Source: Cephaloticoccus sp.
GTDB lineage: Bacteria > Verrucomicrobiota > Verrucomicrobiia > Opitutales > Opitutaceae
Length of the DNA stretch: 37,771 nt
Assembly: GCA_021734075.1 (NCBI GenBank)
Contig: JAIPJW010000018.1
Coordinates: 1 to 37,771 of the forward strand
Reading direction: 5' to 3'
Part shown: in pieces, positions 10,489 to 25,517 of the stretch
Layout of the letters: each line of letters opens with the position of its first letter
Position numbering within the stretch: position 1 is the stretch's first letter
Made by a program: the position numbers and the translations under genes
The notes under the pieces: generated by a model
Databases searched by the model: none
Told to the model about the DNA's origin: nothing
What the model saw: only the letters and a program-made list of their open reading frames with translations

Positions 10489-11094
10489 TTATCTGCCCAG
10501 TCGTCCGCGGCGGTTTCGGTAGACCGCGCAACCCAGCACGAGGATGCCCAATAACACCGCGTAAGTTGCAGGTTCGGGCACGGCGGTTGCAGTCCACGTA
10601 ACCGTGTAAGCTCCCGACCCCAATACCCCGCCATTGGAGATTTCGGTTTCGTCAAAACCCAGATCCGCGAGATTGCTCCCCACAAAAGTGAGTGTGCCGC
10701 TCAACTGGGTCCCGGCTAAATACCCAAAACTCGCAAATATATAATTTGCGTTAAAGCCCCAGGAATCTCCCGTGTGGTTGCTTATTGTCGCATTTGTCCA
10801 CGGCACAGGATCACTTAAGGTTGTATTCAATATCAGGGAGTAAGTTAGGTTCTGAGCTCTGATCCCATCCGTGGATAAGGAAAGTAGGGGTCCATCATTG
10901 TAGCTTGAACCGGAAAAAGTATTCCAAGCTCCCGCGTAGGTCGCTGTGGTGGTGTCGGTCCCGGGATCGTAAACAAAATCCAGCGTGAATTGTGCCCGGG
11001 CGGTTGGTGCGAGCCAGAGTGAAACCAGCAACAAGATCACCGGAATGCTGTATTTCTGGGCAACGGACTGACGTGATGCGGATGTGATTTTCAT
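10489..11094 (-). CDS. PEP-CTERM sorting domain surface protein
   Basis: With a start at 11094 the protein has 201 residues. AGGA lies a few bases upstream of that start. An N-terminal signal peptide (VILLLVSLWLAPTARAQ) is followed by a Ser/Thr/Asn-rich beta-strand domain. The C-terminus is textbook PEP-CTERM: VPEPATYAVLLG, a hydrophobic helix (ILVLGCAVY) and a basic tail (RNRRGR). Such proteins are exported and processed by an exosortase, often in species that make exopolysaccharide; no exosortase gene lies in this window. The central domain is not recognised. The open frame extends upstream to 11259 without the features of a real N-terminus. A palindrome-rich region about 300 bp upstream may control it. 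Confidence 0.85.
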   Translation of the reverse strand: MKITSASRQSVAQKYSIPVILLLVSLWLAPTARAQFTLDFVYDPGTDTTTATYAGAWNTFSGSSYNDGPLLSLSTDGIRAQNLTYSLILNTTLSDPVPWTNATISNHTGDSWGFNANYIFASFGYLAGTQLSGTLTFVGSNLADLGFDETEISNGGVLGSGAYTVTWTATAVPEPATYAVLLGILVLGCAVYRNRRGRLGR

Positions 11095-11128
11095 GGGGAT
11101 CCTGGGATGGATGATAACCTTGGAGTCA

Positions 11129-11148
11129 GGCATTTCACCGGAAATGCC
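11129..11148 (-). promoter_or_regulatory. Hairpin in the leader of the PEP-CTERM gene
   Basis: GGCATTT and AAATGCC form a perfect 7-bp stem with a 6-base loop, about 35 bases before the start codon at 11094. It could affect translation or transcript stability. No known riboswitch fold was recognised around it. Confidence 0.35.
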
Positions 11149-11406
11149 AGAAAGTGTGAGGGCCAACCCTTTAGCCCACGTGGTTGCGGTGGAGCGACCG
11201 AGAGTAGCATAACTGCCTGATAAAACAGTGATTTCCGCGCGTTGGGCTCCAAATACCAAGGGTCGAGGACTGCGACCTGACCGACGGCAAACCTAATTCC
11301 CGAAACTGGACCAAACCCGATATCGCCCACCCGAACTGCGGGGATTCCAAGGGACTCTTTTGTAATGGAGGCAAAACCATCGACGGGGAGACCGGATTTT
11401 GACAGT

Positions 11407-13871: not shown

Positions 13872-14549
13872 ATGTCCGTCTCGCCCCCGTCTGCCCAACC
13901 CACACCCCGGCGCAAAATCATTTGCGCGGACGCGATTGCTTGGATGAAGACCCGCGGCCGGATTGACGGCGCCTGTGCGGTCACCTCGCTGCCCGACGTG
14001 TCCGAGATCGGCAAAACGCTGCCGGTGTGGCGCGAATGGTTTCTTGGTGCCGTGCGCCTTGTGGTGGACGCCGTGCCTGCTGACAGTGCGGCCTTGTTTT
14101 TCCAGTCTGACATCAAGCGCGACGGCGTCTGGATCGACAAGGGCGCGATGGTCATTCGTGCCGCCGAGGACGCGGGAGCGCACGTGCTGTTTCACAAGAT
14201 CATCTGCCGGCGACCACCGGGAACGCTCACCCAAGGCCGGCCCGGGTTCACCCACCTGATCGCGGTTTCGCGGGCGATGCAATGTCCCGCCACTCTGCCG
14301 ATTCCCGATGTCATCGACGATGCGGGTAGGAGTCTCTGGATCCGTGCGACCGGGGTGCGCGCCACGGCTCATGCCGTGCGCTTTGCGCGGGACCAGGTGG
14401 GCGCGCAGTTGATCTTCGATCCCTTCTGCGGAGTCGGCACGATCCCCGCCGTGGCCAACGCGCTCGGGCTCGACGCCCTCGGCATCGAACTGGCCCGGAA
14501 ACGCTGCGAGTTGTCCAGCCAGCAAACCGTGACTCCCGCGGACCTCTAA
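13872..14549 (+). CDS. SAM-dependent methyltransferase of DNA-methylase (N4/N6) fold
   Basis: The 225-residue protein has the circularly permuted order of beta-class amino-methyltransferases. IICADAIAWM and then TSLPDVSEIG (residues 38-47) stand where the catalytic (D/N/S)PP(Y/F/W) motif IV is expected, read here as SLPD. WFLGAVRLVVDAVP and LFFQSDIKRDGVWIDKG follow. The SAM-binding motif I, DPFCGVGTIPAVANALG, and GLDALGIELARKRC come near the C-terminus. The enzyme should methylate an amino group in a nucleic acid or protein. The TSLPD form is unlike standard DNA methylases and belongs to an uncharacterised family. There is no restriction enzyme nearby, so this is not an obvious restriction-modification system. 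Its 3' end overlaps a small convergent gene. Confidence 0.75.
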   Translation: MSVSPPSAQPTPRRKIICADAIAWMKTRGRIDGACAVTSLPDVSEIGKTLPVWREWFLGAVRLVVDAVPADSAALFFQSDIKRDGVWIDKGAMVIRAAEDAGAHVLFHKIICRRPPGTLTQGRPGFTHLIAVSRAMQCPATLPIPDVIDDAGRSLWIRATGVRATAHAVRFARDQVGAQLIFDPFCGVGTIPAVANALGLDALGIELARKRCELSSQQTVTPADL

Positions 14550-14732: not shown

Positions 14733-15503
14733 TTACCATTTACCTTCGGCCTTCGGGTTCTCCCAAACCGGGCCCCGGCTGCGTTTGCGCCAGAGGAGCA
14801 TCAGGAGAAAGCCGATCGCGGCACCGCCGAGGTGCGCAAAATGAGCGATGCTGCCACCGAAGAGGGAAAACCCGGTGACGCCGGAAAACAGGTCGAGCAG
14901 CAGCAGACCCGGGGTGAAGTATTTCGCCGCGATCGGGACCGGCACAAACATCAGCGCGAGTTTCGCGTTGGGATGCAAAAACCCGAAGGCCACCAAAAGC
15001 CCGTAGATCGCCCCGGAGGCCCCGAGCATCGGACCGCCGTAAACCCGGTAGAGGTCGACCAGCGTCGCGGTGACCGCCGGCTCGAGCGATCCCGGTTCCA
15101 TGCCGGTCCTCAGCGATGTGCTGATGACCGAGGGCGTCAGCCCCGCCGCCACCAGTTGTTCGTGGAGGCTGCGGTATTCCTGCCAGTTGACGCCCGTCTG
15201 GATCAGTGCTGCACCGACACCGCAGACAAAATAAAACAGCAAAAAGCGCGGCGCGCCCCACTCCCGCTCCAGAATTCCTCCGAATGACACGAGTGCGAAC
15301 ATGTTGAAAAAGATGTGACCCGGGCTCCCGTGCAGGAACATATACGTCACCAACTGCCACAGGCCAAAATTGTCGTTGGTCGGATACCAAAGCGCGCCGG
15401 CCGTGATAAACCGTTCGGCCCCGTTGGGCAGCAGGACCCCCGCGACAAACACGATGATGTTCACGGTCAACAGGACGGCGACCGCGCGGGGCATACGATT
15501 CAT
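14733..15503 (-). CDS. Rhomboid family intramembrane serine protease
   Basis: The 256-residue protein has at least six membrane helices and the rhomboid landmarks. FLHGSPGHIFFNM carries H58, H63 and N67 (oxyanion region). GASGAIYG carries the nucleophile S163. AHFAHLGG carries the catalytic His224. It would cleave membrane proteins within or near the bilayer of the inner membrane. A roughly 50-residue polar segment (about 107-157) is inserted before the GASG helix and is longer than in E. coli GlpG. It lies 73 bp downstream of the exported ParB-like gene on the same strand, so read-through from that operon is possible, although the roles look unrelated. Confidence 0.92.
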   Translation of the reverse strand: MNRMPRAVAVLLTVNIIVFVAGVLLPNGAERFITAGALWYPTNDNFGLWQLVTYMFLHGSPGHIFFNMFALVSFGGILEREWGAPRFLLFYFVCGVGAALIQTGVNWQEYRSLHEQLVAAGLTPSVISTSLRTGMEPGSLEPAVTATLVDLYRVYGGPMLGASGAIYGLLVAFGFLHPNAKLALMFVPVPIAAKYFTPGLLLLDLFSGVTGFSLFGGSIAHFAHLGGAAIGFLLMLLWRKRSRGPVWENPKAEGKW

Positions 15504-15576: not shown

Positions 15577-16302
15577 TTAGCGCTGCGGGTCCTTGTAACC
15601 GGGCAACGTCGCCGCGGCTGGACTGTGGGCCAGCGTCAGGGCTTCCTGCAGGGCGCGGGCAAAATCAGCCTCATCCGCATCGTTCCATGTGATGCGGGTG
15701 CGGAAAAATTCCGCCCAGTAAAATTCCTGGAAGAATATCGCCGGGGGTTTGATTTCCTCGAATCCGCCGGCCTCCATCACAGCCCATGCCAGCCCGCGAT
15801 AACTATCGGGCTTCATGTCAACAAGCGAGGCGGGCAACTCAGACGGATGACGATGTTGGCCTGAGGAATCGTTCAAGAAGGTGTAACCCTGCTTTTGCAT
15901 CCGGACCCAAAACTCTGCGTCCGCCACATCGGACCAGTTGGCCAGGATGTGGCCGTAGACGGTCTTGTCGGGCTGGGCACAGGCAATGAGCGCGCTGATG
16001 GTGTGATGGCCATCCGTCAGGTAAGGGAGGCCGCCCGGTCCGATCACTACCGGCACATCCTTCTTCTGCAAATAGGCGGTGACTGCAGCGGGGGACATGC
16101 CATCGAACTTTGTCCGCTTGTGCTCGATCTCACGCTGCCCCACGGAAAATTGCGTGGGGTGCAACCTCAAGGCGTCGATGGTGTAGGCCGCGCCGGCCAC
16201 CATGCCCGGTCGAAACGACTCATAGGCCGTCGTCGCGCGAGCCACGCCACTGGCGACGAAGCCCACCAAGACAAACACCGACAACAAGCGGAACCGTTTC
16301 AT
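15577..16302 (-). CDS. Exported ParB/Srx-fold protein (ParBc_2-like) in a phytase operon
   Basis: The 241-residue protein starts with a signal peptide (LLSVFVLVGFVASGVARA). It then carries the ParBc_2-type core: IDALRLHPTQFSVGQREIEH, IPV-like strand DVPVVIGPGGLPYLTDGHH at 82-100, and TISALIACA. The DGHH motif at residues 97-100 is the nucleotide- or phosphate-handling signature of the ParB/sulfiredoxin superfamily, also seen in the serine kinase SerK. The export signal and lack of a DNA-binding helix-turn-helix exclude a role in chromosome partition. The gene follows the phytase gene by 22 bp in the same operon as a TonB-dependent receptor. A role in phosphate-ester chemistry in the periplasm is inferred; it could also be a nuclease, as the old family name suggests. 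Confidence 0.75.
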   Translation of the reverse strand: MKRFRLLSVFVLVGFVASGVARATTAYESFRPGMVAGAAYTIDALRLHPTQFSVGQREIEHKRTKFDGMSPAAVTAYLQKKDVPVVIGPGGLPYLTDGHHTISALIACAQPDKTVYGHILANWSDVADAEFWVRMQKQGYTFLNDSSGQHRHPSELPASLVDMKPDSYRGLAWAVMEAGGFEEIKPPAIFFQEFYWAEFFRTRITWNDADEADFARALQEALTLAHSPAAATLPGYKDPQR

Positions 16303-16324
16303 AAAATCGAATGATTCAGATCGT

Positions 16325-17389
16325 TTATTTTTTAAGGGAAATCACGCGGGCAAGATCGTCCCAGGCATAATACTGAAACGTGCGGTCGGTGGACATCGCG
16401 ACGAACAATCCGCCGTGAAATCCCGGCAGGGCCACATGGGTCACCTCGTTGCCATCGCTCTCCCGGGTGGACAGGCGCACCGCCGTGATCAGGGGATGCT
16501 CGTGCGGCCGACCGGGCAGGCCTTCGCGGGGAAAGACCCGGAAAGTGTCCGCCTGTTGGTTGGAAACCAAAATATAACCCGTGCCGGGTCCGGATTGATA
16601 GATCGAGATGCCCTCCAGATCACTCGCGAAGCCCTTGGTGCCGAAGAGTGCCAGCTCCGTGTTCGCATCGGCTGCATCCGGATCCGCGTGATACTTGTGC
16701 ACGCCTAATTGTTCGTCGCTGTAGTAGACATAACCCAATTCGCTGTCGACCGCGATGGCCTCGATCTCCTTGCGCCCGCTGTAATGGCCGAAGGCGCGCA
16801 CCTTGGTCATGCTCACCTTGCCCATGCCGTCATCAGCCAACCGATACTGCCAGAGATAGCCCTCGGCCGGACCCGACTTGCCCCCGACCACGGCAAAGAT
16901 CGCCTGATCGGAAGGCCGCGTGTAAAGGGCGATGCCCATCGGCGCCCGGGTCATATCGCCATCGAACACCGTCAGGTTGCCGTTGTCCATTGGCGCGAGA
17001 TCAGGCAGGCGAAAAATCCGCAGGCGCTGCGCTTCGCGCTCCGTCACCACTGCGATGTCGGTAGGGCGGCCGTCCAGCATCAAGCCGTAGGCGACGTCGA
17101 CATTGTTGGGCCGGCGCAGATCCGCAACCTTGCCAACCACTTTGCCGGTCAGATCAAAGGCGTAAAGGGCCCCCGCGGAATCCTTGTCGGTCCCGAGCAC
17201 GAGACTTTTCGCCGGATCGGCCCGATTGACCCAGATTGCCGGGTCATCCGTGTCGTGGTCGACCGGCGCTGTCACCACCCGGGGAATGAGCGCCTCGACC
17301 GGGGCATCCCGATCGGGTGCCACCCCCTTGGAACAGCCCGGAGCAATCAGGGCAAGGGGCAGAAGCAGACGGCAATATGCAGGCAGCAT
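16325..17389 (-). CDS. Beta-propeller phytase (3-phytase type), lipoprotein
   Basis: The 354-residue protein matches the beta-propeller (BPP, alkaline) phytases. Landmarks are DHDTDDPAIWVN, LGTDKDSAGALYAFDL, RRPNNVDVAYG, EIEAIAVDSELGYVYYSDEQ and ASDLEGISIYQ, which hold the acidic calcium-binding residues of the six-bladed propeller. A lipobox (LALIAPGC, Cys19) points to an outer-membrane or periplasmic lipoprotein. The enzyme removes phosphates from inositol hexakisphosphate with calcium. It starts 25 bp after the TonB-dependent receptor gene and is followed after 22 bp by the exported ParB-like gene, so the three are one operon. Pairing of such phytases with TonB-dependent receptors is known from alphaproteobacteria. 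The assignment is very likely. Confidence 0.92.
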   Translation of the reverse strand: MLPAYCRLLLPLALIAPGCSKGVAPDRDAPVEALIPRVVTAPVDHDTDDPAIWVNRADPAKSLVLGTDKDSAGALYAFDLTGKVVGKVADLRRPNNVDVAYGLMLDGRPTDIAVVTEREAQRLRIFRLPDLAPMDNGNLTVFDGDMTRAPMGIALYTRPSDQAIFAVVGGKSGPAEGYLWQYRLADDGMGKVSMTKVRAFGHYSGRKEIEAIAVDSELGYVYYSDEQLGVHKYHADPDAADANTELALFGTKGFASDLEGISIYQSGPGTGYILVSNQQADTFRVFPREGLPGRPHEHPLITAVRLSTRESDGNEVTHVALPGFHGGLFVAMSTDRTFQYYAWDDLARVISLKK

Positions 17390-17414
17390 GGATATTCAGG
17401 TTAACGGCAGGTCG

Positions 17415-20189
17415 TCACAGTTTCCAGCTTACGCCGAAGTTGGAGGTCCAGCCGTATTCCTCAAATTGCACCAGGCGGGGGCCCTGGTTCGCTGGTGACT
17501 TGAAGTAGACGCGGAAGGGTTCGTTGGTGATGTTCACGAATTCCACATAACCCTCGATGTTCTTGGAGAACCGGTAGCGCATCGTGAAATCGAGCTGCTG
17601 GAAATCGTCGACCCAGCGGTCCTCATAACGGTTGCCGCCAATGGGCTCGTCCTCACGCAGTCGCTCACTGCGAAAATTGAGCGCGAGCCGGGCAAAGAAG
17701 CCACCCGCTTCATAAGTGAAGCCCAGGTTGCCGATGCGATCCGACTGGCCGATGAAGGGCAGGTTCTCTCCCGGGCGCGTGGGATAGGATGCTTCTGAAT
17801 CGCTGAGGGTGAGATTGGCCAAAAGCCCCAACCCGTCGAAAGGCGCGGGCAGCATGCGCAACTGTTGCTGGTAGGAAAGCTCGAGTCCCTTGATCTTGCC
17901 GTCGCTGCCGTTGCGGAAAGTGGTCAGGTCGTAGGTCGGCAAGGGCACATAGCCGCCGGGAAGTCTGATCTGGTAGGAGAAATTATCGATTTCCTTCAGG
18001 AAAACCCCGGCCGAGACCAGACCGAGTGAGGGTAGGTAATACTCCACTGACGCATCCCAATTGCGTGCAGTCAGTGCCTCCAGGGCGGGATTACCCTGGG
18101 TGACCTCGGCATCGTCGTGATTGATGCCGGTGAACGCGGCGCTCTCGCCGAAGGACGGGCGGGCCAGCGAGTTGGACCAGGAAGCGCGCAGCACAAGATT
18201 TTCGCTGGCATTGTGGCGCAGATAGACGCCCGGCAGCCAGCTGGTGTAGTTGCGCGAGACCTTGTTTCGGCCGGTGACAACCTCATTGGCGATGTCGAGT
18301 TCGTTGCCGGTGGTGTCAAACTTGGTGCGCTCCACGCGGGTGCCGGCAATCAACGTGGTGGCACCAAGCTTCACCGTGCCCATGATGTAGGCCGCGAGCA
18401 CATCCTCGTTGGAGACCCAATCCTCTAGCTCGCTGTCCTCAAAGATGCGATCACCCGAAAAAGCGGAGAAATTGCCGAAGAAAGCCTCGCTGGCCCGGTC
18501 GCCATCCACCCGCGGCACCTTGGTGAAGGGATAATCCCCGTTGTCCGCCGCCAAGCTGGCAAAGGTGAAACTCGCCGGCGCCGAATCCAGTTCGTAAACC
18601 TCGACCTCCTTGTCCTTCTGCTTGGCCCGATACATCACCCCGAATTTGAGCGTGGTGGGGTTGGCGTGATTGAGATCGATCTTCGCATTGAAACCCGCAT
18701 CGAACTCATCCTCGTTGCCCGTGTCGTTGCTGTAGTCGATCCGCTGGTAATCGTAGGTGGTCGGATCGTTGATGTCGCCGCCGGCTAGTTGCTCCAATTG
18801 CAACGCATAAGGGCCGTGCATGGTGTAGCGGAAGGAACCGTCGCGGGTGTTGTGGCGGAAACGCACAGAAGATTCGCCAGGATTCTTCTCCTTGCCGCGC
18901 GACCAGGCCAGCTGGCCGTCCACATCCCATTCCCCGATGCGGGCTTCGCCCCCGGCGAGCAGGGCGAAAAGCTCCTGATCCTTTTCGCGCAGCCGCACGT
19001 CCCGGCGCCAGCGGCGTTGTTTATTGAAGGTCGCCGAGTTGGCGTCAGCCGCAATCAGTGTGCCCTCGGTGAAATCAAACACGGAGCGGTTCCGATATTC
19101 GTTGTCGGTGAATCGATTGTAGGTGGAACGCAGAAACAGATGCGTCTCCTCGGCCGGCTTGCTCTCGAGCGCCACGGTCGCCCCGTAGCGTTTGCGCTCG
19201 ATCTGGTAATCCCGAAAATTCATCGCCTCGAGCACGTAGTAATCCTGGTTGTCGGTCGGGGAATTTTCTAGGGCGTATCCGTCCTCCTCAAAATTGGCGG
19301 AACCAAACTTGCGCTTCTGCCAGGTCGGCGCGATCAGAATACCGAAAGTGCCGTCCTTGCTCAGGGTCGAGTAACTCGCGTTGAATTTCTGGCCCATTTC
19401 ACCTGTGATGTTCGAATAGATGCCCCGGACATTCAGGCTCGCTTCCGTGCCCTCGCTGTCGAACGGACTCTTGGTCTTGATGTTCACCTGACCGCCCAGC
19501 CCCTCCCCGTCCATGTCGGGCGTGGCGACCTTGGTGACCTCGACGCTGGCAAGCGCGTCGGAGGGAATGACATCGAGCGCGATGCCCCGGTCGCCTTCCT
19601 CCGGACTGGCCAACTTGGCGCCGTTGAGTGTCACGGAATTTAGGGCGTAGTTGACGCCGCGAACGATGATGTAGCGACCCTCGCCCTGATCGCGGTAGAG
19701 CGCCAGACCCGGCACCCGTTGCAAGGCCTCGGCCGCGTTTTCATCGGGGAAATTTCCAATTTCATCGGAAGCCACGATGTTGCGCAGCGTATCGGAAGCG
19801 CGCTGCTGATTGATGGCCCGGGCGGTGCCCACCAGGGCGCCTTCGATGACAAATTTTTCCATTTCCACCATATCACCACCAAAGGCGGCATTCGCCGTGG
19901 CAGTGCTTCCAACGGTGACCGTCACGGTCTTCGCCATGCCGGGATACCCGACGTAGTTGTAACCCAGGGTTTGTTCACCGGCCGGCACGTTGTAGAACAC
20001 ATAACTGCCATCGCGATCCGTATAGGATTCGAGTGCGGTATTGGCGATGGTCACGCGGGCGCCGGCCAGCGGCAGTTTCGTGCTGCCGTCGGACACGCGG
20101 CCCGCAACGGTGCCGGTGGTCTGGGCCTGCAAGGTTGGAAGTAACAGCAGACTGGTGATTAATAGAAGGATGTAATGCAGTCGTTTCAT
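17415..20189 (-). CDS. TonB-dependent receptor, likely for inositol phosphates
   Basis: With a start at 20189 (MKRLHYILLLITSLLLL, signal peptide ending near QAQ) the protein has 924 residues. Residues 26-100 form a carboxypeptidase-regulatory-like beta domain (GTVAGRVSDGSTKLPLAGARV). A plug domain follows (NFPDENAAEALQRVPGLAL and GRYIIVRGVNYALNSVTLNG). The 22-strand barrel begins near VTKVATPDMDGEGLGGQV, as in the Xanthomonas/Caulobacter type of TonB receptors. The last residues, NFGVSWKL, are a typical barrel end. It moves a ligand across the outer membrane using TonB energy. The ligand is inferred from the downstream phytase. The open frame extends to 20642, but that part lacks a signal peptide and is not used. 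Confidence 0.92.
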   Translation of the reverse strand: MKRLHYILLLITSLLLLPTLQAQTTGTVAGRVSDGSTKLPLAGARVTIANTALESYTDRDGSYVFYNVPAGEQTLGYNYVGYPGMAKTVTVTVGSTATANAAFGGDMVEMEKFVIEGALVGTARAINQQRASDTLRNIVASDEIGNFPDENAAEALQRVPGLALYRDQGEGRYIIVRGVNYALNSVTLNGAKLASPEEGDRGIALDVIPSDALASVEVTKVATPDMDGEGLGGQVNIKTKSPFDSEGTEASLNVRGIYSNITGEMGQKFNASYSTLSKDGTFGILIAPTWQKRKFGSANFEEDGYALENSPTDNQDYYVLEAMNFRDYQIERKRYGATVALESKPAEETHLFLRSTYNRFTDNEYRNRSVFDFTEGTLIAADANSATFNKQRRWRRDVRLREKDQELFALLAGGEARIGEWDVDGQLAWSRGKEKNPGESSVRFRHNTRDGSFRYTMHGPYALQLEQLAGGDINDPTTYDYQRIDYSNDTGNEDEFDAGFNAKIDLNHANPTTLKFGVMYRAKQKDKEVEVYELDSAPASFTFASLAADNGDYPFTKVPRVDGDRASEAFFGNFSAFSGDRIFEDSELEDWVSNEDVLAAYIMGTVKLGATTLIAGTRVERTKFDTTGNELDIANEVVTGRNKVSRNYTSWLPGVYLRHNASENLVLRASWSNSLARPSFGESAAFTGINHDDAEVTQGNPALEALTARNWDASVEYYLPSLGLVSAGVFLKEIDNFSYQIRLPGGYVPLPTYDLTTFRNGSDGKIKGLELSYQQQLRMLPAPFDGLGLLANLTLSDSEASYPTRPGENLPFIGQSDRIGNLGFTYEAGGFFARLALNFRSERLREDEPIGGNRYEDRWVDDFQQLDFTMRYRFSKNIEGYVEFVNITNEPFRVYFKSPANQGPRLVQFEEYGWTSNFGVSWKL

Positions 20190-20583
20190 GGTCGGTTTGG
20201 TATGTGGTTGGCGGCGCGCCTTCGCGCCGTAAAGCCGACCGTGCACGAGCTGGCAAAACTCCGTCAAGACGCTCAGCCCGGAGTCACAGGAGTTTAACCC
20301 GCTCGTAATCCATCCGTCACCAATCCGAATAAACCGCCAAACATGAGAGCGCTTTTCCCCGAAGCAGATTAATTTTACGATAACGTGGCACCGACCGTGG
20401 AGATGATGGTTTTTCCCAGCGAGGGGGGTGTCGTTCCTGCCTTCCCAGCTCGTCGCCGTGACGTAGAGCCTGAGCACAAATAATTGCCGCAAACTGGCGC
20501 GATCCGCCAAAAATCCCGTTGGCCAATTTTCCCGCTGCCTAGCTATAAAACAGCGCCGAGCCCACCATCCAACTTGAGCCTCC
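20190..20583. other. Divergent intergenic region with GC-rich leader hairpin
   Basis: This 394-bp gap separates the TonB receptor (minus) from the SGNH hydrolase (plus) and must hold both promoters. GGCGCG 20213-20218 and CGCGCC 20223-20228 form a tight hairpin about 24 bases before the receptor start. TATAAA at 20544-20549 is a plausible -10 box for the plus-strand gene; TTGGCC at 20519-20524 is a weak -35 with an overlong spacer. No clear Pho box was found, although phosphate control of the phytase operon would be expected. Confidence 0.4.
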
Positions 20584-21621
20584 ATGAGCACGCCTTCGGC
20601 GACGAGCAGCACCTTGACCACCGAGAGCCAGTGCGAAAGCATGGCAGACCATTCTCAATCCATGCGCCTGATCGGTGAATCCCTGGTTTTTATCGGAGCA
20701 GAGGCTTCGCTTCTGGCTTTAATCCCCGCCCCCAAGGCAGATCTGCGTTTACGCAGCACCTACGAATCGGGACCCACGACAATCGACTACACGGAGGGGC
20801 TCGATTATCGGTTCGATGCCGCGGCCGGAACCCTTACCCGACTCCCCGGTTCGCGTCTGCCTGACTTCCGCACCAATGTGCTCCACGGTCGCGAGGATTT
20901 CGATCACACGCAGTTTCCGGGTTATGGCAATCTGCCGTTCTTTGCCTACGCCGACTATACGGCCGAAACCGCAATCCACTGGCCGCAGCCGGTTGCTGAC
21001 GCGCAATCCCTGACGGCCACGCGACGCAAATTGGCCGCGGGACTGCCGTTCACCCTCGTGGCCTACGGCGACAGCATCACATTTGGGAGCGAGGCCAGTG
21101 CGCCCCACCTCGTTTTCTGGCAACGCTGGGCCGACGCCTTGCAGGCCAGGCATCCAACCGCACGCATCAAAACGGTGAATGCCGCCACCGGCGGGGACAC
21201 GACCACGCAGGGCCTGGAGCGACTCAACGAAAAAATCCTGCCGCAGCAGCCCGATCTCGTGCTGATCGGTTTCGGTATGAATGACCACAACCGCGACAGT
21301 GTGCCCCTGTTGCGGTTCAAGACCCAGCTGACGGAAATCGTGACCCGCATTCACGAACGGACGGGCGCGGAGACCCTGCTCTATTCCACCTTTCCCCCGA
21401 ATCCCAATTGGCGACATGGCTCACACCAGATGGCGGCCTACGCCCGCGCCACCGCGGAGGTTGCCGCGGCCACCGGCAGCGCGTTCGTCGATGTGTATGC
21501 CGCGTGGCAAATCTTCGCCGCCCGCAAGCGGCCCGAGGACTTGCTGGCCAACAATATCAACCACCCGAACGATTTCGGGCATTGGCTTTATTACGAAGCG
21601 CTGGAGGAGCTGAAACTGTGA
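20584..21621 (+). CDS. SGNH/GDSL family esterase
   Basis: The 345-residue protein has an N-terminal beta-sandwich (about 28-145) and a C-terminal SGNH hydrolase domain. Block I is AYGDSITFG with nucleophile S164. Block II is ATGGDTTTQG, block III is GFGMNDHN with N233, and block V is NHPNDFGH with D330 and H333. Two-domain proteins of this type are often carbohydrate esterases that remove acetyl or similar groups from glycans. No convincing signal peptide is seen, although the start is uncertain: methionines at residues 20 and 27 are also possible. It is divergent from the TonB receptor and converges on the dioxygenase-like gene with 20 bp between stops. Confidence 0.85.
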   Translation: MSTPSATSSTLTTESQCESMADHSQSMRLIGESLVFIGAEASLLALIPAPKADLRLRSTYESGPTTIDYTEGLDYRFDAAAGTLTRLPGSRLPDFRTNVLHGREDFDHTQFPGYGNLPFFAYADYTAETAIHWPQPVADAQSLTATRRKLAAGLPFTLVAYGDSITFGSEASAPHLVFWQRWADALQARHPTARIKTVNAATGGDTTTQGLERLNEKILPQQPDLVLIGFGMNDHNRDSVPLLRFKTQLTEIVTRIHERTGAETLLYSTFPPNPNWRHGSHQMAAYARATAEVAAATGSAFVDVYAAWQIFAARKRPEDLLANNINHPNDFGHWLYYEALEELKL

Positions 21622-21641: not shown

Positions 21642-22427
21642 CTACAGCTTGCCCGCGGCGAGCATCTCCTTGGTGAGTTCTTCCTGATATTTTCTGACCG
21701 CGGCCTCGTCTTCCCGCGCGCGGGCGGAGTAATAGATGAAGCCCAACGCCTGCCGGCTGCGGGTCGTGGATCGGTTGGCGTCGGCGCGATGAATCGTGAG
21801 CGCATGGTGCACCAGCAGGTCGCCGGGCCGGGCGATCATGCAGACTTCGGCGGCCCGGTCCTCGTCGCCATAGTCCGTGATGCCCTGCGAGAAACCTAGG
21901 GTGCCCGTCTTGCCGTGCGGGCGCACTCCGCGACGGTGCGACCCGTTGATGTAGCGCACACAGCCGTTCTCTTCGTCCACGTCCTCGAGTGCGAGCCACA
22001 TGGTCATCCCCTCGATCGGGGTCAGCTTCGCATAATACCCGTCCTGATGCGGGGGCGTGGGTTGGCCGATACCGGGTGGCTTGTTGAAATACTGCATGTT
22101 GCGGCCGACCACCGGACGCCCGAGCAGAAACTCGGCGAGGGCAAAGAAGCGGCTCTTGAGATAGAGCTGCTCGAAGAAATCGTCGTGTTGATACAGACGG
22201 ATTAGCTGCTTGAGCGATGTCTTGTCCGCCTTGTCCTCGTAAAAGACGTCGGCGACCGGCATGGTCGGCACGACCTCGGCGATCACTCGCCGGAGACATC
22301 CATGAATCATCGCGACCTCGTCCGTGTTGATGAAACCGGGGATGCGTGCATAGCCCAGTTCATCAAACTGCTGTTTATAATCCGCCGGGAAGGCTGTGGG
22401 GTCAGGGGGTTTGATGCCAAATGCCAT
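21642..22427 (-). CDS. Phytanoyl-CoA dioxygenase (PhyH) family protein
   Basis: With a start at 22427 (MAFGIKPPDP) the protein has 261 residues. It carries the iron(II)/2-oxoglutarate dioxygenase triad: H127 and D129 in PPHQDGYY, and H213 in ALTIHRADANRS with a nearby arginine for 2-oxoglutarate. MWLALEDVDEENGCVRYINGSHRRG is typical of the family. It would hydroxylate or oxidatively demethylate a small molecule in the cytoplasm. The gene is divergent from an FAD oxidoreductase with 146 bp between starts, so shared control and a shared pathway are likely. The substrate cannot be read; phytanoyl-CoA itself is unlikely in this setting. Confidence 0.87.
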   Translation of the reverse strand: MAFGIKPPDPTAFPADYKQQFDELGYARIPGFINTDEVAMIHGCLRRVIAEVVPTMPVADVFYEDKADKTSLKQLIRLYQHDDFFEQLYLKSRFFALAEFLLGRPVVGRNMQYFNKPPGIGQPTPPHQDGYYAKLTPIEGMTMWLALEDVDEENGCVRYINGSHRRGVRPHGKTGTLGFSQGITDYGDEDRAAEVCMIARPGDLLVHHALTIHRADANRSTTRSRQALGFIYYSARAREDEAAVRKYQEELTKEMLAAGKL

Positions 22428-22573
22428 GGGATTAAAAGCTCTGATCGGAGATTCACTCACCGAGCAGCATCCCCAGACATACCCTAAGCCCGGCTGCACC
22501 GCAATCGATTGATTCGCGCAACGCTTGATGGTTGTGCCGTGGTGTGACTACGCCAAGCTACTTCCAATTCCCC
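22428..22573. promoter_or_regulatory. Divergent promoter region with perfect 10-bp palindrome
   Basis: The 146-bp region lies between the dioxygenase-like gene (minus) and the FAD oxidoreductase gene (plus). It contains the perfect palindrome CAATCGATTG at 22502-22511, near its middle, a fair position for an operator that serves both genes. No clear -35/-10 pairs were seen. Confidence 0.35.
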
Positions 22574-24031
22574 ATGGCAGTTACCCATTTCGATCTCCTC
22601 GTTGTTGGCGCCGGTTCCGGCGGATTCGGGGCGGCGTTGGCTGCGGCCCGGCTGGGGGTTAAAGTGTTGCTCGTCGAAAAAAGCGACTGGCTAGGAGGCA
22701 ATGCCACACGCTGCGGAGTCAACGTGTGGGAAACCGGGGTCGGCGGCACCGGCATCCCGTTCGATCTCTATCGGCGGCTGGCAAAAATTCCCCAGGCCAT
22801 TGGCATCTATTCAATCAACCGCCACATCTGTTGGGATGACCCGGCCAAGGGCCCCGTGTTTCCCGGCGGTGAAATGCTCATCGACCCGACCAAACGCTAT
22901 CTCGACTCGCTGACCCAATTTGGCGCACCCGAAATCTACGGCGAACGCATTTTCCGCCAAACCCACTGGCATGGGGTGCCTTTCGAGCCTGAGATTTATG
23001 CGGCCGAAATGGAAAAAATGCTGACCGAAACCAGTTGCTGCACTGTGTGGAGCAACACGGGATGCGTGAAGGTGGAAATCGATGAACGCCGCATTCGCCG
23101 TCTGACGCTTAGCAGCGGCCACGCCGTCACGGCCGATTTTTATGTCGATGCCACGGCCGATATCGTCGTCGCCCGAAAGGCGGGATGCGCCACCTCGCTC
23201 GGGCAGGAACCGCGATTGCGGCACGACGAACCCAGCGCGCCGCGCGAACCCAACGACCGGCTCAATGGCGCCACGTTGATCTATCGGGTCACGCGCACTG
23301 ATCAGCCCGGTATCGAACCCTTGCCCCCGGAAATCCCGGCCACTTGCTGGTGGGACGGGCAATTTCCGGCGGCCGCATGCACCCAATATCCCAACGGCGA
23401 TTTCAACATCAACTCACTGCCCACGATGCAAGGTCGGGAGATGATCGAATTGGGATATCTCAAGGCCTACGACGAATGCCGGCGCCGCATTCGGGCACAC
23501 TGGCATCATACGCAAACGGTGTTTCCCGAGTTCCAGGCCTACCGCATGGTTTGGGTGGCGCCCGGGCTCGGGGTGCGCGAAGGACCGCGTTTGTTGGGAC
23601 GATACGTGCTCACGGAACACGATCTTGACCGTGGGCTGACCGGCCAAACACACGACGACATCATCACGATTGCCGATCACTGCAAGGACACCCACGGCGC
23701 CGACACGGGGCACCGTGACAGCAATCTCAAACAGCCCTACGGGGTGCCCTTTCGCTGCCTGCTACCGCGCGAAATTGACAACCTCGCCATCGCCTGTCGC
23801 GGCGCGAGTTTCTCCTCCATTGCCGCCTCCAGCTGCCGGCTGTCGCGCACGATGATGCAACTCGGCCAAGCCGCCGGCACCGCGGCTGCGATTGCGAAGG
23901 AAAAACTGCTCTCCTCTTTCGCCGAGGTTCCGCCCCCGGACCTGCAAACCAGCCTCACGCAACAACACGTCGAACTCACCTGGCCGCGCTCGCCGGAATT
24001 GCTCGCCTGGCTGCAAAACGAGGACGCGTGA
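22574..24031 (+). CDS. FAD-dependent oxidoreductase (FAD_oxidored family)
   Basis: With a start at 22574 (MAVTHFDLLVVGAG) the protein has 485 residues. The Rossmann FAD site is VVGAGSGGFGAALAAARLG followed by VLLVEKSDWLGGNAT, as in succinate-dehydrogenase-like flavoproteins of the FAD_oxidored (PF12831) type. A second nucleotide-fold stretch is ADFYVDATADIVVARKAG. Near the C-terminus, FSSIAASSCRLSRTMMQLGQAAGTAAA is the typical flavin-binding end. The substrate is unknown. Related proteins are often found near glycosidases and sulfatases in Planctomycetes and Verrucomicrobia. It is divergent from a dioxygenase-like gene, and a two-step oxidation shared by the pair is a reasonable guess. Confidence 0.87.
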   Translation: MAVTHFDLLVVGAGSGGFGAALAAARLGVKVLLVEKSDWLGGNATRCGVNVWETGVGGTGIPFDLYRRLAKIPQAIGIYSINRHICWDDPAKGPVFPGGEMLIDPTKRYLDSLTQFGAPEIYGERIFRQTHWHGVPFEPEIYAAEMEKMLTETSCCTVWSNTGCVKVEIDERRIRRLTLSSGHAVTADFYVDATADIVVARKAGCATSLGQEPRLRHDEPSAPREPNDRLNGATLIYRVTRTDQPGIEPLPPEIPATCWWDGQFPAAACTQYPNGDFNINSLPTMQGREMIELGYLKAYDECRRRIRAHWHHTQTVFPEFQAYRMVWVAPGLGVREGPRLLGRYVLTEHDLDRGLTGQTHDDIITIADHCKDTHGADTGHRDSNLKQPYGVPFRCLLPREIDNLAIACRGASFSSIAASSCRLSRTMMQLGQAAGTAAAIAKEKLLSSFAEVPPPDLQTSLTQQHVELTWPRSPELLAWLQNEDA

Positions 24032-24203: not shown

Positions 24204-25517
24204 ATGCAAGACTATGTGGGCTGGTTGATCGGCGGGGTGATTGCCTGTGGCCTCTGCCTGTGGGGCAACCTGAGGGAACTGCGCCGACGGCGTCTGCTTA
24301 CGGATACGCCCACCTCCAAGGCACTCGGGGTCTTCATCGGTATGTCCGAACTCAAGGGCACGGCCGAGGCCGAACAACCCTTGACCAGCTTTCTGGCCGA
24401 ATTGCCCAATGTGATCTACAACTGGTGCGTCGAGGAATCGTGGTCCCGGATCGTCACCGAGACCTACACCGACAAGGATGGCAAATCCCGCACGCGCACG
24501 CGGCGGGAAAACGGCTGGACCACGGTCGCCCAAGGCGGCGACAGTATTCCGTTTTACCTGCAGGACGACACCGGGGTGGTGCTCGTCCGGCCCGAGGGAG
24601 CCAAGCTGGAGTTGACGGGATTTTTCGCCCAGACCGTGGGTCGCGGTGATCCGCTATATTACGCCAAGGCCCCGCGGACAGCGGTGCCCCACTCGGACGG
24701 CCGACGGCGGTTCATCGAACAGGGCATCCCGTTGCACGCCCCACTTTACGTGATCGGTCCGGCACGGGAGCGCACTGATGTGGTCGCCCCCGAAATCGCC
24801 GCGAACCGGGAGGCGGAGATCTTTCTCATCTCCACCCGCGGCGAAGACAAGGTGCAGGCAACCATGGGACGTTGGGCGTGGTTTTGGGGTCTGCTGGGTT
24901 TGCTGATCGTCTGCCTCCCGCTGCTGATGATGGTGGCGGGACGACAGTATTTGATCCCGGTGAAATTGTTGGCCTGGGTGGGATTGCCACCGCTCACTTA
25001 TGCCCTGCTCTGGGGCCTCGGTTGGGTCTGGATGGTGTTCAACCAAGTCGTCGGACTGCGGCAACGGGTGCGGCAGGGTTGGTCATTGATCGAGGTGCAA
25101 TTGCAGCGCCGCCACGATCTCATACCGCGGCTGGCCGCCGGGCTGAGCGGACTCAGCGCCCACGAAAAAGAGGTGCAAACCGCGGTCACTCAACTGCGCC
25201 TCCAATACGAGGCCACGGCCCCCGGGGCCGCCGGGCCGGATTTCGCCGGTCTCGCCGGCACGTTGCGCGTGGTGGCGGAACGTTATCCCGCCATCACCGC
25301 CCAGGCGGGATTTGCGAACCTGCAGAAAGAGTTGGTGGAGACCGAGCAACGCATCGCCCTCGCCCGGTCCTACTACAACGATATCGCCACCTACTTTGCC
25401 AACCGCCTTGAAATCATCCCCGACCGATGGGTGGCTGCCCTGGTCCAGATGAAGCCCGAGCCACTTTTTCGCGCCGACGACTTCGAACGCGCTCCGGTGA
25501 CGGTGAAATTCGCCTGA
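24204..25517 (+). CDS. GIDE-LemA fusion membrane protein
   Basis: The 437-residue protein begins with a membrane helix (VGWLIGGVIACGLCLW, about 5-20). Residues about 40-215 form a domain like that of E3 ligase GIDE/MUL1 (FIGMSELKGTAEAEQPLTSF at the start). Two more membrane helices follow (about 226-247 and 257-280). The C-terminal 150 residues are LemA-like: FNQVVGLRQRVRQGWSLIEV, LQRRHDLIPRLAAGL and RSYYNDIATYFANRLEIIP. LemA proteins are helical-bundle membrane proteins of unclear role; bacterial GIDE domains lack the RING finger and have no proven ligase activity. The protein stands alone, with non-coding gaps on both sides. Confidence 0.8.
   Translation: MQDYVGWLIGGVIACGLCLWGNLRELRRRRLLTDTPTSKALGVFIGMSELKGTAEAEQPLTSFLAELPNVIYNWCVEESWSRIVTETYTDKDGKSRTRTRRENGWTTVAQGGDSIPFYLQDDTGVVLVRPEGAKLELTGFFAQTVGRGDPLYYAKAPRTAVPHSDGRRRFIEQGIPLHAPLYVIGPARERTDVVAPEIAANREAEIFLISTRGEDKVQATMGRWAWFWGLLGLLIVCLPLLMMVAGRQYLIPVKLLAWVGLPPLTYALLWGLGWVWMVFNQVVGLRQRVRQGWSLIEVQLQRRHDLIPRLAAGLSGLSAHEKEVQTAVTQLRLQYEATAPGAAGPDFAGLAGTLRVVAERYPAITAQAGFANLQKELVETEQRIALARSYYNDIATYFANRLEIIPDRWVAALVQMKPEPLFRADDFERAPVTVKFA

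Follow-up and report, generated by a model that had tools for sequence, protein, structure and literature searches.

The window, a stretch of 37,771 nucleotides from Cephaloticoccus sp. (contig JAIPJW010000018.1 of assembly GCA_021734075.1), contains three consecutive genes on the minus strand, encoding a TonB-dependent receptor, a beta-propeller phytase and an exported-looking protein of the ParBc_2 family (PF08857). In eight other Verrucomicrobia genomes ParBc_2 and phytase are found in one polypeptide, so the link between the two goes beyond chance, and chance is untenable as its cause. ParBc_2 is very probably a functional partner of the phytase, and the exported protein probably helps cells to scavenge phosphorus outside the cytoplasm. 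A preliminary description of this DNA had proposed that it completes phytate breakdown. The functional tie to the phytase stands, given the eight fusions, further fusions to pyrophosphatases and a related lipoprotein in the exoproteome of phosphorus-starved cells, while the roles named there (phosphotransferase, phosphatase or binder of inositol phosphates) stay suggestions.

The receptor gene (17415-20189, 924 aa) matches PF13715, PF07715, PF00593 and TIGR01782 (E 4.3e-161), i.e., a carboxypeptidase-regulatory-like N-terminus is followed by plug and barrel (PF07715, PF00593, TIGR01782); upstream of this start its frame continues without a stop as far as an ATG at 20642. It is followed by the gene of a divergent phytase (16325-17389, 354 aa; PF02333, E 1.1e-36) and by the ParBc_2 gene (15577-16302, 241 aa; PF08857, E 1.9e-46), with gaps of 25 bp (17390-17414) and 22 bp (16303-16324). 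Coordinates and gaps agree with the preliminary description, and the gene names are backed by Pfam and NCBIfam. The assembly (3.53 Mb, 212 contigs) contains a single ParBc_2 match and a single phytase match, both being the window genes. Two given genes would be adjacent by chance in less than 1 in 1,000 genomes at an estimated gene number of about 3,000.

Fusion and linkage of ParBc_2 and phytase

The eight fusions are found at loci L026, L027, L028, L040, L041, L124, L125 and L126, where L037 and L039 are taken as the same loci as L124 and L125 (genomes G605 and G647) and counted once. For L027, Pfam identifies both parts (ParBc_2 2.9e-46, Phytase 3.2e-37), while the other seven rest on phmmer searches with the window proteins. 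In the fusions ParBc_2 is N-terminal and the phytase C-terminal, whereas in the window the phytase gene comes first. A signal-peptide-like start, judged here and below by a simple hydrophobicity rule and in places by eye, precedes ParBc_2 in all eight, in two cases only when translation is taken to begin at an internal methionine. A receptor gene lies directly upstream in all seven fusions that can be tested; the eighth, L041, begins 112 bases from its contig end. In the AlphaFold2 model of fusion L037 (pLDDT 84.4, pTM 0.65) the relative placement of the halves is unreliable; Foldseek matches it to the phytases 1poo, 1qlg and 3amr and, separately, to 2hwj. Three genomes also encode, near the phytase, a protein of 409-430 aa that matches no Pfam family (L027:8946-10175, L028:4775-6061, L033:2451-3743); the N-termini of the three are similar and exported-looking.

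Among 200 sampled Opitutaceae genomes, ParBc_2 is present in 14, phytase in 54 and both in eight; fusions L040 and L041 come from a separate contig scan beyond this sample. The two form one open frame in six of the eight genomes (G318, G328, G418, G605, G647, G661), are adjacent in the window and lie on different contigs in G497. Linkage is a stronger signal than co-occurrence. The conserved neighbourhood asked of other genomes is thus seen inside Opitutaceae, where seven of the eight genomes with both genes have them fused or adjacent, but not outside, as no phytase stands beside ParBc_2 in the stretches fetched there. ParBc_2 is rare among genomes related to that of the window, being found in 3 of 177 genomes in a sample of the order and 7 of 387 in an overlapping sample of the phylum. 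A receptor gene is directly upstream of the phytase in 16 of 27 phytase-only Opitutaceae loci, most of them drawn from the better-scoring phytase matches of the family sample. Receptor and phytase are therefore the usual unit, with ParBc_2 as an addition. In G080, receptor and phytase are followed on the same strand by a calcineurin-like phosphoesterase as third gene, 18 bp after the phytase (L032:6228-7160).

In both gene trees the window genes fall outside a 16-row clade holding all fusions, with one long row, L030, placed unsurely. ParBc_2 of the window forms a group with G497 and G652 (support 100/98), and its phytase forms one with G497 (100/99). Uniting window and fusions in one clade is rejected by the approximately unbiased (AU) test (p 0.00083 for ParBc_2, 2.1e-5 for phytase). 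Since the trees reject a common clade and the gene order differs, the joining of ParBc_2 and phytase probably arose at least twice, judging from sequence comparison; an ancestral linkage with later losses is a possible alternative history. Fission of an ancestral fusion into the window genes is disfavoured by gene order and trees. A single origin of the fusions, with these alone held as one clade, is not rejected (AU p 0.44 and 0.27), so we do not claim several fusion events within Opitutaceae. In G497, a genome of the same genus, the receptor-phytase pair aligns with window positions 16355-20322 (73% over 3,987 nt) and the ParBc_2 gene is on another contig, flanked by an M14 peptidase; a search for this peptidase, run without positive control, found none in the window's genome.

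The ParBc_2 protein, the phytase and other fusion partners

The window ParBc_2 scores 158.5 bits against a gathering cut-off of 23.6. Up to an E of 0.1 Pfam reports PF08857 alone, and the protein therefore has no DNA-binding domain, as had been described before. With this single family and a signal-peptide-like N-terminus it does not resemble a canonical ParB of DNA segregation. The probable signal peptide, also proposed earlier, covers residues 1-23 (16234-16302, minus strand); it looks type I-like by eye and passes the hydrophobicity rule, with cleavage placed by eye between ARA and TT. This rule is passed by 24 of 27 ParBc_2 rows. The exceptions are L131 (G524a) and two others, Aeromonas L057 and Serratia L052, which probably miss out since no Gln is allowed in the core. 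For comparison, the rule accepts 18 of 23 phytase-only rows and none of 13 chosen short proteobacterial ParBc_2 proteins.

The DGHH motif noted earlier is present at residues 97-100 (16003-16014, minus strand), where a helix begins (99-107 in the model). Its D97, H99 and H100 show no variation in 22 aligned rows, among which are four fusions, or in the 13 rows of a more diverse set. R169 and E193 are likewise invariant in the 22 rows, where the full invariant set is P49, T50, Q51, G55, D97, H99, H100, L105, F131, W132, M135, L143, L156, P157, R169, E193, F194, W196, A197 and G235. Phosphate-binding loops in the ParB/sulfiredoxin fold start a helix, as the DGHH loop does, and the conserved polar residues of ParBc_2 likely lie at a phosphate site.

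The AlphaFold2 model of the window protein, built with 22 sequences, has a mean pLDDT of 92.9. Its top Foldseek match is 2hwj (Atu1540; E 1.3e-17, TM 0.87 by target length, 35% identity). Lesser matches, with poor rmsd, are ParB 7bm8 (E 0.019), SerK 5x0j (E 0.032), SbnI 5uje (E 0.10) and sulfiredoxin 1yzs (E 0.21). In a profile search against solved structures 2hwj alone stands out, the other seven matches having E 0.07-0.48, and no SerK chain was matched at E up to 10.

The window phytase is well above the PF02333 cut-off (127.1 against 21 bits) and divergent, as the best matches reach 306 bits in the order sample and 379 in the family sample. It matches 1cvm, 1qlg, 1poo and 3amr in phmmer (best E 2e-28). 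A loose lipobox (IAPGC, by eye) at the N-terminus makes it a possible lipoprotein. In what we take to be the active-site list of 1cvm, with residue roles and a +28 numbering likewise assumed, 13 positions are kept (D55, D56, K76, N99, N100, D102, R122, K179, E211, E227, D258, E260, D314), K77, R104, Y159 and E180 are changed, and D308 falls in an alignment gap. The enzyme could be either a phytase or a phosphatase resembling one; that phytate is its substrate is therefore something we infer. Another Opitutaceae genome, G571, has a 696-aa protein with two phytase stretches in tandem (L138:1329-3419).

A second fusion partner of ParBc_2 is found in Vibrionaceae, where the domain occurs in 27 of 121 genomes with 29 matches. 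Four of these have a C-terminal part that phmmer relates to the pyrophosphatase portion of L019. The pyrophosphatase fusions are L160, L162, L163 and L164 (larger stretches L233-L236) and L019:5992-7536, and they begin with signal-peptide-like stretches by eye. Pfam confirms a family I inorganic pyrophosphatase in L234 (PF00719, 2.8e-35) and in the Vibrio pelagius plasmid copy L019 (PF00719, 2.2e-34). In Pseudomonadota as a whole PF08857 matches 40 of 349 sampled genomes, 38 of them above the cut-off, and in a sample of the genus Pseudomonas 2 of 25. According to the accessible parts of PMC5082522, phosphorus-starved P. fluorescens SBW25 secretes a Pfam08857 lipoprotein; its authors suggest an UshA-like role and also term it a putative nuclease, and they report no evidence of PhoBR regulation for the phytases of the strains studied, including the known one of SBW25.

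Other members show further architectures. On Ensifer and Sphingomonas plasmids (L016:4391-6585, L017:4311-6567; two of the ten plasmid regions viewed) a ParBc_2 gene without signal peptide and the 3' end of a gene for a SulP anion transporter overlap by 4 and 8 bp, respectively. A 725-aa ParBc_2 protein (L004:106-2283) has an autotransporter-type repeat and a PEP-CTERM tail as weak matches below the cut-off. A 750-aa frame (L218:1497-3749), whose start is maybe called too early, has ParBc_2 near the C-terminus behind about 450 residues without Pfam match.

Around the three window genes, Pfam identifies a PEP-CTERM protein (10489-11259), an N6/N4 methylase-like protein (13872-14549), a rhomboid (14733-15503), a GDSL lipase (20584-21621), a PhyH dioxygenase (21642-22499), an FAD oxidoreductase (22532-24031) and a LemA/GIDE protein (24204-25517), none of these seven with an obvious phosphorus role. 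Scans of the locus gave one promoter-like site against 1.6 in shuffles and 11 terminator-like sites, mostly intragenic, against 5.4.

Possible roles of the exported ParBc_2 protein

We suggest that the three genes could form a unit for scavenging organic phosphorus outside the cytoplasm, in which; (i) the receptor would import a phosphorylated ligand or product, (ii) the phytase would strip phosphates and (iii) ParBc_2 would be its working partner in the same compartment. Beta-propeller phytases stall at lower inositol phosphates, before full breakdown. The mechanism that we favour is that ParBc_2 could itself be a phosphohydrolase outside the cytoplasm, with its conserved Asp-x-His-His, Arg and Glu acting on phosphate esters left by the phytase, e.g., these lower inositol phosphates, so that more phosphate would be freed. 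The phosphoesterase in third place in G080 and the lipoprotein that phosphorus-starved SBW25 secretes also speak for this reading. A partner acting on phosphate esters is suggested because ParBc_2 shares a chain with phytase in relatives, has conserved polar residues and is fused to pyrophosphatases in others; we infer its catalysis and substrate and the envelope location of the proteins. That hydrolysis by ParBc_2 carries the phytase products further can be put forward tentatively, at a little under even chances. More speculative still, and somewhat doubtful, is the wider proposal of a new class of extracytoplasmic phosphate-ester hydrolases on the ParB/sulfiredoxin fold, repeatedly joined to phosphorus-releasing enzymes and extending phytate breakdown.

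Several observations weigh against this reading. Most phytase carriers have no ParBc_2 (14 against 54 of the 200 genomes), thus phytases usually work without it, and 6 of the 14 ParBc_2 carriers are without phytase match. The enrichment of co-occurrence is modest (Fisher one-sided p 0.013, two-sided 0.024, uncorrected for relatedness). Near the 52 ParBc_2 loci of the contig scan only the four fusions matched the window phytase, searched up to 8 kb to each side, with several contigs shorter; a remote phytase could be missed by this query. A same-strand phosphoesterase behind the phytase, as in G080, occurs in only one of the 27 phytase-only loci, L149 having a relative on the opposite strand. 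The sole close fold match, 2hwj, comes with no stated function. A Pho-box scan also gives no support for phosphate regulation, the consensus being of the E. coli type, which may not suit Opitutaceae, and the controls mononucleotide shuffles. Upstream of the window genes the best site has 10 of 14 matches, equalled by 16% of shuffles. Nothing convincing was found in 49 upstream regions (14 of receptor operons, 11 of stand-alone ParBc_2 of Opitutales or planctomycete type, 19 gamma- or betaproteobacterial and 5 of pyrophosphatase fusions), where the best site, in L054, is equalled by 1% of shuffles and those of four of the 14 receptor upstreams, at differing positions, by 6-9%.

The strongest competitor of a hydrolase, although itself unlikely, is a non-catalytic module that binds phosphate esters and keeps the substrate close to the hydrolase, in the way that carbohydrate-binding modules serve glycosidases. 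In its favour, the fusion partners of ParBc_2 are two unrelated enzymes that release phosphate, beta-propeller phytase and family I pyrophosphatase, and the changes at several ligand-region positions of the window phytase relative to the assumed 1cvm list are consistent with it. ParB-fold members are also described as binding CTP, ATP or GTP in the accessible parts of PMC12704722. However, many signal-peptide-bearing ParBc_2 members stand alone, and in our judgement the invariance of D97, H99, H100, R169 and E193 would rather suit catalysis.

Somewhat less probable again is an exported hydrolase of nucleotides or pyrophosphate bonds, similar to UshA, whose product could feed the partner enzyme; it would sit with the phytase in a broader toolkit for scavenging phosphorus. 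This is the role suggested by the SBW25 authors in the text available to us (PMC5082522); nucleotide binding by the fold agrees with it, and the pyrophosphatase fusion fits a partner that releases pyrophosphate, but alone it leaves the phytase fusion in eight genomes unexplained. An extracellular nuclease that frees phosphate-rich nucleotides from nucleic acid is improbable. Pfam describes the family as 'Putative ParB-like nuclease', in line with the term used for the SBW25 protein, yet Pfam finds no DNA-binding domain, the best structural match has no stated function and the enzymes to which ParBc_2 is fused use small phosphate compounds as substrates. A SerK-like kinase was set aside as the protein looks exported, and there is presumably no ATP pool outside the cytoplasm. 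Finally, a chance insertion without functional meaning behind the receptor-phytase pair, which the separate ParBc_2 gene of G497 and the many fetched ParBc_2 loci without phytase match would fit, is hardly credible in view of the eight fusions in relatives.

If the functional partnership with phytase holds, the ParB/sulfiredoxin fold would extend from cytoplasmic nucleotide switches to extracytoplasmic phosphate metabolism. The phytase and pyrophosphatase fusions give ParBc_2 a directly testable role in phosphorus scavenging, for a family that occurs in many genomes, with one clear solved relative, 2hwj, and no demonstrated function found in the searches made. Soils store much of their organic phosphorus as phytate, which beta-propeller phytases do not break down completely, so a partner dedicated to finishing the task would be of importance to the phosphorus cycle and to the use of phytases in feed.

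Comparison with known systems

The closest solved protein, 2hwj, shares family PF08857 and fold with the window protein. However, short proteobacterial ParBc_2 proteins like 2hwj are without signal peptide by our rule, whereas the window ParBc_2 has a signal-peptide-like start. SerK and SbnI, which are free serine kinases, the ParB CTPase and sulfiredoxin are cytoplasmic nucleotide users. They are matched by fold only weakly, and unlike them the window ParBc_2 looks exported and has no DNA-binding part as in ParB. The survey of the ParB-CTPase fold in PMC12704722 describes, in the parts accessible, a search with PF02195, whereas the window protein belongs to PF08857; the terms ParBc_2, phytase, pyrophosphatase, signal peptide, secreted and Atu1540 are all absent from its main text. 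The SBW25 lipoprotein (PMC5082522, accessible parts) is, like the window protein, an exported ParBc_2 tied to phosphorus supply, but no phytase link appears in those parts, and it is likened here by description, not by sequence. In the open-access literature searched, neither the fusion of ParBc_2 to phytase nor that to pyrophosphatase was seen to be mentioned.

The pairing of a TonB-dependent receptor with a beta-propeller phytase is a known one, although our literature search did not confirm it. Nothing on it was found in the accessible parts of PMC9414882. With such pairs, whose phytases are represented by 1cvm, 1poo and 3amr, the window shares PF02333 and the upstream receptor. To this pair the window adds an exported ParBc_2 as a third gene, and its relatives add it as the N-terminal half of the phytase chain. 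The families themselves are known, while this architecture and the functional clue that it gives for exported ParBc_2 appear to be new.

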